From: a bacterium
Lineage (GTDB): Bacteria > ARS69
Assembly: GCA_025774865.1 (NCBI GenBank)
Contig: JALGZO010000582.1
Location: forward strand, 1-5,606
DNA: 5,606 bases
Reading direction: 5' to 3'
Positions within the stretch are counted from its first letter, which is position 1; each line of letters begins with the position of its first letter. A program made the position numbers and the translations under genes. The notes beneath the pieces were generated by a model. It did no database searches and was not told the origin of the DNA. It was given only the letters and a program-made list of their open reading frames with translations. Shown here piece after piece: positions 2 through 4,715 of this stretch.

Positions 2-190
2 GTCGAGCTGCACTTGGGTGAGGAACAGACCATTGCGGCTCTCGAAGAAGGCGTCGTGGGTATGCGGGTCGGCGGCCACCGCCGCCTCATTGCGCCCTCC
101 GATCTCGCCTACGGGCCCACCGGTCACGGCGACACCGTGCCACCCTACGCCACGCTGATCCTCGACGTGGAGCTCGTCTCCGTGGGTTGA
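2..190 (+). CDS. FKBP-type peptidyl-prolyl cis-trans isomerase, C-terminal part (5' end outside window)
   Basis: These are the last 62 residues of an FKBP-fold prolyl isomerase, which catalyses cis-trans isomerisation of Xaa-Pro bonds during protein folding. The start lies upstream of the window, so signal peptide and cell location cannot be judged. The fragment aligns without gaps to the C-terminal half of human FKBP12: a glycine-rich EEGVVGMRVGG segment, then a loop with LAYG (the Tyr is equivalent to FKBP12 Tyr82), then PPYATL and the closing strand LDVELV. Two pocket aromatics are changed: FKBP12 Trp59 is Leu (fragment residue 14) and Phe99 is Leu (fragment residue 54). Tyr82 and Ile56 are kept. 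Family assignment is firm. Catalytic strength is uncertain because of the two substitutions. It is separated by 435 bases from the next gene and is probably an independent unit. Confidence 0.93.
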   Translation, partial: VELHLGEEQTIAALEEGVVGMRVGGHRRLIAPSDLAYGPTGHGDTVPPYATLILDVELVSVG

Positions 191-625: not shown

Positions 626-883
626 ATGCACCGGAGTAGAACGTTCAAGTTCGTCCTTCTTTTCGTCGTCTTCATCGGATCGTCGTTTCTCGCGGCCCCT
701 GTCGCGTGGGCTGACGACGACCTCATCGCCGACACCGGCGAGCCCACCGATCCCGAACGCGCTCGCGGCTTCGTCGACCGGTTTCTGGAAGATCGCGACG
801 GATTCAAGGACGTTTCGATCAGATCCCTGTGGCAGTACCTGCGGACGCTCAGACTCATCAGCCCCTGGAGAGCCGATTCATGA
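626..883 (+). CDS. Small exported protein of unknown function (85 aa, Sec signal peptide)
   Basis: I do not recognise a family. The N-terminus is a clear Sec signal peptide: a basic n-region (residues 1-8, with two Arg, one His and one Lys), a hydrophobic core (about 9-26) and an A-W-A cleavage motif ending at Ala29. The predicted mature chain is 56 residues and begins with three Asp. It has an acidic first third, a charged probably helical middle (about 43-60) and a more basic amphipathic helix near 64-78, ending in SPWRADS. There is no Cys, so no lipobox and no disulfide. The frame has high GC at third codon positions, like the neighbouring genes. The in-frame start at 473 would bury the signal peptide behind 51 unrelated residues, so 626 is preferred. 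The stop overlaps the start of the TPR regulator (ATGA at 880-883), so the two are probably translationally coupled. Possible roles are a secreted signal precursor, a periplasmic partner or a membrane-active peptide. Confidence 0.72.
   Translation: MHRSRTFKFVLLFVVFIGSSFLAAPVAWADDDLIADTGEPTDPERARGFVDRFLEDRDGFKDVSIRSLWQYLRTLRLISPWRADS
867..872 (+). promoter_or_regulatory. Shine-Dalgarno that fixes the regulator start at 880
   Basis: GGAGAG lies seven bases upstream of ATG 880, inside the end of the preceding gene. The alternative in-frame GTG at 829 has no comparable site. Together with the ATGA overlap this decides the start. Confidence 0.75.
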
Positions 884-3306
884 TCTCGAGGCTTCGCGAT
901 CTGCCGGTCTCCGACCGGTATAATCGAGCGGAGCTGCATTTCCACCGGGGCATGTATGCCCTCGCGCGCCAGGAATTCGACACGCTTCTTGCCGCGGGGG
1001 ATGACGAACCAGTCCCGTGGAAGGCAGAGGTCAGCTGGCACCTCGCGGTGTGTTGCGCCGCCCTCGGCAAGTGCGACGACGCCGATGACGCGGTCGAGCG
1101 AGCGCTGGAGATTCCCGGAATCTCCCGCACGTATGTCGCGAGACTACAGGCGGTCCAGGGCTTCAGCGCTCTTTCCCGTGGTGAATACGCCCTGGCGCGG
1201 GAAATCTGCCAGCGCACGACCCGGACCCTCCGCGACATCGGCGACCATGCGGGACTGACATCTTCGCTGCGCTGGCTCGCCCTCACCCACCTGCGGCTCG
1301 GAGAACTCGAGCCCGCGTTCGAGTGTGGGTACTGCGCGCTCGCAGAGGCCCGACATGCGGGTGTCGAGGCGGAGTCGGGTCACGCCCACGCCTTGCTCTG
1401 CGTCGCGTTCATTCAGAACGGCCAGTACGACGCCGCGAAGCGTCACGGCCGGGAAGCGCTCGACATCGCGACCCGCCTCGGCCATCAATCGGGCGTCGTC
1501 CGAAACAACATCCAGCTTTCCATCGCGTGCCGGCTCTCGGGTGAGCTGGAGGCGGCGGCCAAGCACGCGCTGCGAGCGCTCGCGGGGGCGGAAGAGTCCG
1601 ACGCTCCGATGCTCGCCATCAGTGCGAGACTGGCGGGGGGGCGCGCGCTACGCGAGACCGGCCGTCACGACGCGGCTCGCGAGCTCGTGCAGGGCGCGTT
1701 GAAGATCGCGGAGTCGAGTGAACGCTCACGCGACTACGTTCTCGTGCTGGAAGATCTCGGGGACCTGGACATGGCGGCGGGCAACGTCCGCGCCGCGGTG
1801 GAGAAGTTCCGCACCGCGTATCGCCGCGCCGAGACCATCGCGGCGGAAGGCGATCTCATCGCCGAGCTCGGCTGGCGAATCGGAGCGACGCTCCTCGAGC
1901 TGGGCGACCGCGAGGGGGCGATCGCGTGGATCGAACGAAGTCTCACGGTGTCGGAAAAGGCCGGTGAGCGAAAAGAGAAGGCCCTGGCATTCCGGGCCCG
2001 CGCCCGGTGGCGCGCTCGGTCCGGACAGCTAGAGTCGGCCCGGGTGGACCTCGACGAGAGTCTGAGGATACTCGCGTCGCTGAACGTGCCGTACGAGCTC
2101 GCGCGGACGCACGTCGCGTTCGACCTCGTGCTTTCCGAGTCGGGGTCCGACTCGGCCAAGGTTCGTGCGGAGCGGCGGGAGCACCTGAGCGTCGCGCGCC
2201 GGATCTTCGAGCAGATCGGGGCGGCTCACGATCTCGCCGTGACCGAGGAGGCCGAGATTCGCCTGACCTCCGAAGGCGGAGAGCCTCCCAGTCCTCGCCG
2301 CTCGCGAGGGAGCCGGGGGCAGCAGAGCCTCGAGGCGAAGTGGGCCTCGCCCGCTTTCCGGGCGACGCTCGAGGAGTGCCGAAAGCTCGGCCCGACGAGC
2401 CTACCCCTTCTGCTCGTCGGGGAGACCGGTACGGGCAAGACGCTGCTCGCCGACGCTCTGCACCACCTCGGCCGACGCGAGCAGGGGGATTTCTTCCCGG
2501 TGAACTGCGCGGCGCTGCCGGAGCACTTGCAGGAATCCGAGCTCTTCGGGCACCGGAAAGGTGCGTTCACCGGAGCCGAACGCGAGCACTCCGGGATTCT
2601 TCGCGAAGCGGGTCGCGGCACGGTGTTTCTCGACGAGATCGACAAGAGTTCCCTCGAGTTCCAGGCGAAGCTCCTGGACGTTCTCGATGTCCGCGAAGTG
2701 CGGCCGGTCGGTTCGACGCGTCGGGTTCCGGTGGAGGCGCGGATCATCTGCGCCACGAATCGTGACCTGTTCGCGCTCGTGGAAGAAGGAAAGTTCCTCG
2801 AGGATCTGCACCATCGGTTGATGTGCGGGATCATCACGGTGCCGGCGCTTCGCGAACGCATCGAAGATCTGAGCTTGCTCTGTGGCGCTCTACTGGAGGA
2901 GATCGCCAAGTTGGAGAACGTGGAGTCGGTCACGATCGCCGACGATGCCTGGAGGGTGCTCCGTTCCCACGCCTGGCCCGGCAACGTGCGTGAGCTCAAG
3001 GCTCTTCTGCACCGCGCGGTGGCGCTGAACCGCGGCAAGGTCCTCGATGCCGCCGCCGTGCGGGCGAGCGCACCGCTCGGGTCCACTCTCCAAGGATCGC
3101 GATCGACAAGGGCGTCCGTCGAAGCCGACATGGACCTCGCCAGGAGAATGGCGCACCTGGAGAGAGAAGAGATTCGTCGGGCGCTCGTGGAGGCCGGCGG
3201 GGTTCGCCGGAAGGCGGCCGAGATCCTGGGCGTCTCGTACCGCGGGCTCGGAAAGAAGATGGTTCGCCTCGGCCTCGCCGACCGCGAGCGCAAGCGACCG
3301 GTCTGA
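880..3306 (+). CDS. Sigma-54-dependent transcriptional activator with N-terminal TPR sensor domain
   Basis: An 808-aa one-component enhancer-binding protein that should use ATP hydrolysis to open sigma-54 holoenzyme promoters. Residues about 10-460 are roughly ten TPR helix pairs, replacing the usual receiver, GAF or PAS sensor. Residues 463-487 are a Ser/Pro/Arg/Gly-rich linker. The AAA+ domain (about 488-725) has Walker A GETGTGKT (514-521), ESELFGH (552-558), the sigma-54-contacting GAFTGA loop (561-566), Walker B VFLDEI (582-587), sensor I ATN (625-627), LRER (657-660) and WPGNVREL (699-706). The Fis-type helix-turn-helix is at about 758-798. One oddity: the first of the two conserved arginine fingers (PspF Arg162) is Leu640, while the second (PspF Arg168) is kept as Arg646. 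The start at 880 is preferred over GTG 829 because of a good Shine-Dalgarno and the ATGA overlap with the small exported protein gene. The target promoter is unknown. Family assignment is very secure, and the TPR ligand is unknown. Confidence 0.95.
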   Translation: MISRLRDLPVSDRYNRAELHFHRGMYALARQEFDTLLAAGDDEPVPWKAEVSWHLAVCCAALGKCDDADDAVERALEIPGISRTYVARLQAVQGFSALSRGEYALAREICQRTTRTLRDIGDHAGLTSSLRWLALTHLRLGELEPAFECGYCALAEARHAGVEAESGHAHALLCVAFIQNGQYDAAKRHGREALDIATRLGHQSGVVRNNIQLSIACRLSGELEAAAKHALRALAGAEESDAPMLAISARLAGGRALRETGRHDAARELVQGALKIAESSERSRDYVLVLEDLGDLDMAAGNVRAAVEKFRTAYRRAETIAAEGDLIAELGWRIGATLLELGDREGAIAWIERSLTVSEKAGERKEKALAFRARARWRARSGQLESARVDLDESLRILASLNVPYELARTHVAFDLVLSESGSDSAKVRAERREHLSVARRIFEQIGAAHDLAVTEEAEIRLTSEGGEPPSPRRSRGSRGQQSLEAKWASPAFRATLEECRKLGPTSLPLLLVGETGTGKTLLADALHHLGRREQGDFFPVNCAALPEHLQESELFGHRKGAFTGAEREHSGILREAGRGTVFLDEIDKSSLEFQAKLLDVLDVREVRPVGSTRRVPVEARIICATNRDLFALVEEGKFLEDLHHRLMCGIITVPALRERIEDLSLLCGALLEEIAKLENVESVTIADDAWRVLRSHAWPGNVRELKALLHRAVALNRGKVLDAAAVRASAPLGSTLQGSRSTRASVEADMDLARRMAHLEREEIRRALVEAGGVRRKAAEILGVSYRGLGKKMVRLGLADRERKRPV

Positions 3307-3392
3307 CGACCCGACCCCATCACACCCGTACGTTTCGCTACGCCACTCCGGGCGGCGCCCGCGAGGTTGCGGTTCTCGCGTGGCCAGCGGTC

Positions 3393-4715
3393 GTGAACAT
3401 GCTCTCGTTCACGCTGATGGGGACGGCCGACACGTTCTTCGTCGGTCGGCTCGGCACCGTCGAGCAGGGAGCGGTGGGCTTTTGCGGAACCGTTCTCTGG
3501 GCGGTCATGTGCTTCTTCATCGGGACGCTGGAGATCGTCCAGACGTTCGTGGCGCAGCACATCGGAGCCGGCAACCCGCGACGGGCCGCGCGTTGGGGAA
3601 CGACGGGCTATCATGTGGCGCTCGCCTTCTCGATCCTGCCCTTGCCGCTGGCGTTCGCCGGCGCTTCGATCTTCGAGCAGTTCGGGATCGCGGACGAAAT
3701 GATCCCGTTTGCCGACATCTACTTCCAGATCCGCATCTTCGGGACGTCGCTCTTCTTCCTGTCCCGAGTCGCCGATTGTTACTTTCGCGGCGTCGGCGAT
3801 ACCGTCACGCCGATGGTCGTCACGATCGTCGCGAACGCCGTCAACATCGTTCTCGATCCTCTTCTCATCTTCGGTTGGGATCCGCTCGGAATCCCGGCGA
3901 TGGGCGTGGCTGGCGCCGCGTGGGCCACGGTCATCGGAACCGCGGTGCATGTGGCGGTCTACTGGGGAATTCTGCACCGACGAGGTCGGGCGGGGCGCCA
4001 CGTTCCGCGGTACCGATCACGGACCCGCACCGAGGACGTGAAGGAGCTCCTCCGCATCGGCGCGCCGTCGGGTCTGCACTGGCTCCTGGACCTCGGAGCA
4101 TGGACGATGTTCACGATTGCCGTCGCGCGTCTCGACGCAGTGCAGTCGGCGGCGAACATCATCGGCATCACGCTGATCCGCGCATCGTTCATGCCGGGCT
4201 ACGGGATCAGTACGGCGGCCCAAACTCTCGTAGGGCAGTATCTCGGAGCCCGCGACGTGAGCTCGGCGAGGCGCTCCGGCTGGACGAGTGTGTGGATCAC
4301 GTGCGCGTACATGGGCGCGGTCGGCGGGCTCTTCTACGCATTTCGTTATCAGCTCGTGGGCTTGTTCACCGACGATCCGGCGGTGATCGAGGTGGGCGTC
4401 CGGCTGATGGTGTGGGCGGCTCTGTTCCAGCTCGGCGACGGCGTGCAGGTGGTGCTCGCGGGCGCTCTCCGCGGGGCGGGTGATACGCGGTACGTGATGG
4501 TCATCGGGCTGGCGGGTGCCTGGTTCGTGTTCGCGCCGCTGACGTTCTACTTGATGCTGGTGCACGACCTCGGGGCGGAGGGAGGCTGGATTTCGGTGAA
4601 TGCATGGGTGATCGTACTGTCCGTGCTGCTCGTGGCTCGCTTCCGCAGCGACGTCTGGACCCGGGGTGGAATCAACCTCGAGCCGCGGCCAGTCCCGGAG
4701 GCGGAGGTCACGTGA
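3393..4715 (+). CDS. MATE family efflux transporter (N-terminus probably begins upstream, near 3303)
   Basis: A multidrug and toxin extrusion (MATE) transporter of the inner membrane, a family that exports organic molecules by Na+ or H+ antiport. Counting from GTG 3393 (440 aa), the hallmarks are MGTADTFFVGRLG (9-21), FRGVGDT (131-137), NIVLDPLLIFG (151-161), GQYLGARD (281-288) and LRGAGDTR (359-366). The two-fold family symmetry is visible: QHIGAGNPRRA (55-65) pairs with QYLGARDVSSA (282-292), and the two RG.GDT loops pair with each other. Eleven to twelve hydrophobic helices fit. GTG 3393 is the first ATG/GTG/TTG in frame, but it falls inside the first membrane helix and has no Shine-Dalgarno. 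The frame stays open upstream and encodes REVAVLAWPAVV, typical MATE N-terminal sequence. The likely real start is CTG 3303, overlapping the TGA of the regulator, giving 470 aa. Substrate cannot be told. Position suggests co-transcription with the regulator. Confidence 0.93.
   Translation: MNMLSFTLMGTADTFFVGRLGTVEQGAVGFCGTVLWAVMCFFIGTLEIVQTFVAQHIGAGNPRRAARWGTTGYHVALAFSILPLPLAFAGASIFEQFGIADEMIPFADIYFQIRIFGTSLFFLSRVADCYFRGVGDTVTPMVVTIVANAVNIVLDPLLIFGWDPLGIPAMGVAGAAWATVIGTAVHVAVYWGILHRRGRAGRHVPRYRSRTRTEDVKELLRIGAPSGLHWLLDLGAWTMFTIAVARLDAVQSAANIIGITLIRASFMPGYGISTAAQTLVGQYLGARDVSSARRSGWTSVWITCAYMGAVGGLFYAFRYQLVGLFTDDPAVIEVGVRLMVWAALFQLGDGVQVVLAGALRGAGDTRYVMVIGLAGAWFVFAPLTFYLMLVHDLGAEGGWISVNAWVIVLSVLLVARFRSDVWTRGGINLEPRPVPEAEVT

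Follow-up and report, generated by a model that had tools for sequence, protein, structure and literature searches.

The window (the whole stretch of DNA that was analyzed, 5,606 nucleotides) is contig 586 of G000, a metagenome-assembled genome of 4.7 Mb in 785 contigs. It carries, in order, the end of an FKBP-type isomerase gene, a small open reading frame (ORF), a gene for a TPR-sigma54 regulator, a MATE transporter gene, and the start of a fatty-acyl ligase gene (Table 1). A reading made from the letters of the window alone, here called the sequence-only reading, had described an 85-amino-acid protein with a Sec signal peptide, joined to the regulator gene by an ATGA overlap with an internal Shine-Dalgarno sequence. 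The ORF, the sequence, and a rule-based score bear this out; the stop codon of the small ORF (TGA, 881-883) overlaps the start codon of the regulator (ATG, 880-882). Further downstream, the MATE gene has no in-frame ATG, GTG, or TTG upstream of position 3393, and typical MATE N-terminal residues precede this position; a CTG at 3303, which overlaps the regulator stop codon, is a possible MATE start (3303-3393).

Table 1. Features of the two-gene locus, in coordinates of the window.
Feature	Position	Strand	Basis
Small exported protein, 85 aa	626..883	+	ORF; homologues adjoin the regulator in 5/5 genomes of the phylum; purifying selection measured in homologues
Sec-type signal peptide, aa 1-29, predicted cleavage after AWA	626..712	+	Rule-based score; AF2 helix 3-22, low confidence
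GEPTDP, window version of the family motif G-[DE]-P-D-x-[P/L/A]	737..754	+	Gibbs motif search; pN/pS 0.30
C-terminal amphipathic tail, last 24 aa, sequence-variable	809..880	+	Hydrophobic moment; evolves about as fast as the linker
Shine-Dalgarno sequence GGAGAG for the regulator	867..872	+	Sequence; within the last codons of the small ORF, 7 nt before the ATG
TPR - sigma54 AAA+ - Fis HTH regulator, 808 aa	880..3306	+	Pfam PF13424, PF00158, PF25601, PF02954
TPR superhelix, about 11 repeats, aa 1-463	880..2268	+	AF2 pLDDT mostly 80-95; PDB matches LGN, Rap, NprR, MalT domain III
Conserved charged set R284, E291, D325, E329, R333, E366, A-helices of TPRs 8-10	1729..1977	+	Alignment of regulators
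Sigma54-interaction AAA+ domain; GAFTGA at 2560-2577	2347..2823	+	PF00158, E = 2.7e-55; sequence
Fis-type helix-turn-helix HTH_8	3151..3261	+	PF02954

The small exported protein and its partner regulator

The N terminus of the small protein combines a basic n-region with a hydrophobic core, and cleavage at its AWA-type site, after residue 29, would leave a mature part of 56 residues (signal peptide MHRSRTFKFVLLFVVFIGSSFLAAPVAWA, mature part DDDLIADTGEPTDPERARGFVDRFLEDRDGFKDVSIRSLWQYLRTLRLISPWRADS); signal peptides throughout the set were called by the same simple rule-based score. The 95 small proteins that we collected are 70 to 145 residues long (median, 103), and 93 of them lack a lipobox-like pattern. 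A Gibbs search of 90 non-redundant mature sequences returned the motif G-[DE]-P-D-x-[P/L/A], with a mean LLR of 7.74 versus about 4.9 in shuffled sequences. At their C termini, a tail of 24 residues exceeds the linker in hydrophobicity, and its hydrophobic moment is above that of shuffled tails (P = 8e-10; 95 proteins). Comparison with Pfam and NCBIfam gave no credible family match for the small proteins, comparison with the PDB gave weak SOD1 look-alikes only, and the AF2 model of the window's small protein is poor (mean pLDDT, 55.5).

In some families, PWDD or WDDD stands at the motif position; PWDD or PWDF replaces GDPD in L204 (943-1254), L177, L181, and L195, and these versions resemble the W-acidic motifs bound by kinesin light chain TPRs. 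In kinesin light chain, the TPR groove recognizes short motifs that are acidic and share a conserved core (PMC6214655). That system is eukaryotic and has no transcription function; the likeness of these small proteins to its ligands is an analogy.

The sequence-only reading had stated beforehand that a lack of purifying selection on the small gene would count against a functional pair. Such selection is present, with dN/dS values of 0.13 to 0.76 in close pairs. Pooled pN/pS is lowest in the motif (0.30), the most constrained part of the protein, and reaches 0.59 in the signal peptide, 0.64 in the linker, and 0.69 in the tail; between G142 and G143, the tail holds five of the six amino-acid changes of the small protein. 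These values bear on the view that the small ORF serves as a leader or as a translational-coupling device, its protein product being irrelevant. Such a device would account for the ATGA overlap and internal Shine-Dalgarno sequence in the window and for the overlaps at 16 of the 95 loci (exactly 4 nt at 9 of these). However, the gap between the two genes ranges from -35 to 139 nt with a median of 64 nt, so that coupling is not general, and the gene is conserved as a protein, with dN/dS below 1, a constrained motif, and a signal peptide throughout the set. We therefore regard this view as very improbable.

The regulator has the make-up of a sigma54-dependent activator, combining PF00158 (residues 490 to 648), an intact GAFTGA loop (residues 561 to 566), and, after an AAA+ lid, a Fis-type HTH_8 domain, in a host that encodes RpoN (PF04552; found in all 14 host genomes tested, G000 included). 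Its TPRs span residue 14 to about residue 460 (PF13424, E = 4.4e-30), and an AF2 model built from four sequences gives a confident TPR superhelix for approximately residues 10 to 463 and a poorly modeled AAA+ part. The solved folds nearest to the TPR part are LGN (Z = 27.5), Rap-PhrC (24.4), NprR (24.1), and MalT domain III (1hz4; 19.9). The first three of these are peptide binders, but the fold alone is weak evidence of peptide binding because LGN, MalT, and many non-signaling proteins share it.

Largely specific to these regulators is a set of six charged residues (Table 1). Along with the small residues typical of TPRs, each of them is 86 to 94% conserved in an alignment of 86 regulators. 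Of these regulators, 74 have five or six of the set, versus none or one in six of seven alignable TPR proteins without the sigma54 domain. A-helices line the inside of a TPR superhelix, and the helices that carry the charged set are accordingly predicted to line the groove.

Full-length relatives of the regulator are 732 to 1051 residues long. The longest (about 1,020 to 1,050 residues; L153 and L156 to L158) have, by eye, a GAF-like segment between the TPRs and the AAA+ domain, and a second, small-molecule input is possible there. Some paired regulators (L191, L196, L205, and L206) match PF00158 without the strict G[AS]FT[GDN]A loop, and their action may therefore depart from the usual sigma54 mode; of the regulators without a strict GAFTGA, all those tested retain matches to PF00158 and HTH_8.

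Distribution of the pair

The sequence-only reading had proposed a search for homologues of the 56-residue mature part beside TPR/sigma54 AAA+ genes in related genomes, and had named regulators consistently lacking the small gene as a finding that would count against the pair. All five genomes analyzed from the window's phylum encode an orthologous regulator (identity over the TPRs, 53 to 61% in the four relatives), and immediately 5' of each lies a small exported ORF; GEPTD is invariant in six sequences. Paralogous TPR-sigma54 regulators in the same genomes are also paired, with motif versions that include GDPDMP, GDPDIP, and GEPEAP.

In a second phylum (80 genomes), a search with an N-terminal 51-amino-acid fragment of the G029 regulator, later supplemented by profiles of the small protein and of the TPR part, returned 36 places in 35 genomes; all 34 places with enough upstream DNA have an exported ORF of 97 to 131 residues with GDP (starts as first called). 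The reverse search, with a profile of 22 small proteins (A7) over the same 80 genomes, matched 43 genomes at essentially one place each, 5' of the regulator. Six of these matches were new (G107, G143, G142, G174, G172, and G170), and every one is followed by a TPR regulator that had been missed before, although in G170 the sequence examined stops short of the AAA+ region. When 386 genomes of the domain were screened with a TPR-region profile (A8), more regulators turned up in ten families that belong to neither phylum; wherever the start was intact, an exported small ORF precedes the gene.

Altogether we collected 95 pairs, 20 from the window's phylum, 43 from the second phylum, and 32 from elsewhere, with regulator starts set at a nearby ATG. 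The pair occurs at no fewer than 95 loci in 16 families of uncultured bacteria, namely the window's and 15 outside its phylum (in at least two more phyla), where families and phyla were counted by genome handle. Exported small ORFs precede all TPR-sigma54 regulators whose 5' ends are intact, and neither orphan receptors nor orphan small proteins were found among the 95 loci or in the profile search of 80 genomes. The two checks set by the sequence-only reading, on unpaired regulators and on purifying selection, thus both favor the pair. Two TPR proteins without a recognized sigma54 domain, a 280-residue TPR-only ORF (G003:C18, L089) and a kinase-type protein (L091), have no such small gene and were left uncounted. 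Viral contigs held no relatives detectable with profile A8 or A3, and none were found on plasmids.

The pairing exceeds chance. Under a fixed criterion (ATG start, 70 to 150 residues, signal-peptide score of at least 2.9, stop -35 to +140 nt from the regulator start), an adjacent small ORF was found for 92 of the 95 pairs and for 4 of 191 control genes, which were ordinary genes for proteins of at least 230 residues from two of the same organisms. The Fisher P value of about 8e-66 is descriptive only, since the pairs are related and the small ORFs had been picked with the same signal-peptide rule. Ordinary sigma54 activators give the same picture; none of the 16 with complete 5' ends in G000 has an adjacent exported small ORF.

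The neighborhood of the pair is less constant. An FKBP-type isomerase gene lies 5' of it in the window (2-190) and in several close relatives, such as L040 (722-1111) and L010 (34-456, reverse strand). This bears on the view that the small protein is a periplasmic sensor whose signal a membrane protein relays to the cytoplasmic TPR regulator. Such a relay would explain export and conservation without re-import of the protein, but no third gene consistently adjoins the pair: the FKBP neighbor is common to close relatives only, and the genes 3' of the pair vary. We consider a relay of this kind quite improbable.

Proposed direct contact and its alternatives

The established features of the pair are adjacency, the export signal, the conserved motif, the conserved charged set on the regulator, purifying selection, and the presence of RpoN in the hosts. 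A near-obligate partner that always lies upstream, one invariant motif on it, and one invariant charged set on the receptor are best explained by direct contact, and we think it somewhat more probable than the contrary that the small exported protein is a dedicated ligand of the adjacent TPR domain. The small protein would be made first, from the same transcript as the regulator, and sent out via Sec; the TPR groove would read the protein, or its C-terminal part, in the cytoplasm, and this reading would switch the sigma54 AAA+ motor on or off. Its GDP-type motif would most likely touch the invariant charged set in the inner helices of TPRs 8 to 10, while the variable amphipathic tail may give pair-specific recognition. 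Binding, the direction of the switch, and the route by which an exported protein meets a cytoplasmic receptor are what we infer here.

Two routes could bring the partners together, and both fall within the probability that we assign to direct contact. In the first, which we hold possible if doubtful, a processed peptide would be re-imported, by analogy with RRNPP quorum sensing. In the second, rather unlikely when taken singly, the regulator would read precursor that failed to be exported, and the pair would monitor the state of secretion. Neither orphan receptors nor orphan peptides turned up, unlike in RRNPP systems, so that a role in cis is no less plausible than that of a diffusible pheromone; the hosts are also presumed to have an outer membrane, and a diffusible peptide would therefore have to cross two membranes.

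Covariation of the partners differs between groups. In a mixed outside group (26 pairs), distances in the mature part and in the TPR part, controlled for AAA+ distances, are correlated (partial r, 0.52 to 0.56), versus 0.20 for the signal peptide. The same test is weaker in the second phylum (0.17 to 0.29) and fails in the window's own phylum, and tail charge shows no correlation with TPR charge.

Autoregulation through -24/-12 promoters before the small gene was considered and rejected: such promoters are not enriched there over the reverse strand or shuffled sequences, and none in the window is convincing. Nothing obvious thus marks the small gene as a target of the adjacent regulator. Five host genomes contain few exact TGGCAC-N5-TTGCW sites, and their total is only slightly above that of a control pattern; those found (L260 to L286) often precede genes for exported proteins, pseudopilins, or lipoproteins. 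A target regulon was sought among these sites, but none of them could be assigned to these regulators.

The promoter data also touch on a different view, in which the small protein belongs to the envelope or the cell surface, is controlled by the regulator or merely coexpressed with it, and never touches the TPR domain, which would sense something else. The protein is exported and its tail is amphipathic and membrane-active-looking, as expected of such a component, and the exact -24/-12 matches before exported and pseudopilin genes are in keeping with it, although their number is little above that of control patterns. However, the small gene always lies 5' of the regulator and is never parted from it across 95 loci, and no orphan copies were found; sigma54 promoters are not enriched before it; and a variable linker that harbors one conserved motif is seen more typically in docking peptides. 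We judge this view unlikely, and direct contact remains the reading that we prefer.

Relation to known systems

The sequence-only reading had likened the pair to RRNPP systems. The likeness in logic stands, since adjacency, Sec export, and a TPR fold with Rap and NprR among its matches are all present; membership in RRNPP is not supported. RRNPP systems are described by five criteria, namely a propeptide of 10 to 100 residues, SEC secretion, a receptor of 250 to 500 residues, TPRs, and directly adjacent genes, and validated systems have intergenic distances of -50 to 191 nt (PMC10075063). The gap in our pairs falls within that range, the genes are directly adjacent, the small protein is SEC-secreted by the rule-based score, and the receptor has TPRs. 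At 85 residues the window's small protein is within the size range, whereas the family median of 103 lies above it. As in Rap-Phr, PlcR-PapR, NprR-NprX, Rgg-SHP, and AimR-AimP, all from Firmicutes, a Sec-exported small gene lies beside that of a cytoplasmic TPR protein, and the C terminus of the small protein evolves fast.

The differences are as marked. Receptors are 285 to 473 residues long in RRNPP systems and 732 to 1051 here (808 in the window), beyond the 250-to-500 range, and the small proteins are 21 to 50 residues long there and 70 to 145 here. In place of an HTH_3-type effector or the Rap phosphatase helix bundle, the output is a sigma54 AAA+ domain with HTH_8. The small gene is always upstream and has an internal GDP motif, orphan receptors are not seen, and the hosts belong to uncultured phyla outside Firmicutes. 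Profile A3 matched LGN/Pins and consensus TPRs in the PDB and no RRNPP receptor at E values up to 0.001, so that the match to such receptors is one of structure only. The excess length of the receptor, an output through a sigma54 AAA+ motor and a Fis-type HTH, and hosts from outside Firmicutes keep us from filing the pair under RRNPP, though by analogy it may work like an RRNPP system. The survey behind the criteria covered complete Firmicutes genomes only (PMC10075063), and RRNPPA evolution has been described within Firmicutes (PMC9765709).

Two further systems resemble the pair in part. As in PspA-PspF, a sigma54 AAA+ activator would be under an envelope-responsive protein partner with an amphipathic helix. 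PspA, however, is a cytoplasmic protein that attaches to PspF at its AAA+ domain, and PspF lacks an N-terminal sensory domain; in the present pair, a Sec signal is found on the partner and a TPR domain on the activator. In MalT-type regulators, too, a TPR solenoid (domain III) does the sensing for a transcription activator. Unlike this pair, MalT joins its solenoid to a STAND ATPase and a LuxR-type HTH and is not known to have an adjacent exported small protein.

A search of open-licence papers returned no description of a pair formed by an exported small protein and a TPR-sigma54 regulator; TPR receptors with exported peptides have been described from Firmicutes and their phages and plasmids. 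The pair is probably an undescribed kind of signal-and-receptor pair, and we treat it as a candidate. The broader proposal, to which we give about even weight, is a widespread one-component class in at least three phyla outside Firmicutes, in which a TPR-gated sigma54 activator is under the direct control of an exported protein that bears a GDP motif and a variable tail and serves as a pheromone or as an export monitor. A short motif on the small protein and six charged residues on the regulator offer a concrete assay. If the proposal is true, it would extend peptide signaling or export sensing to several uncultured phyla, for which the literature searched describes nothing comparable.
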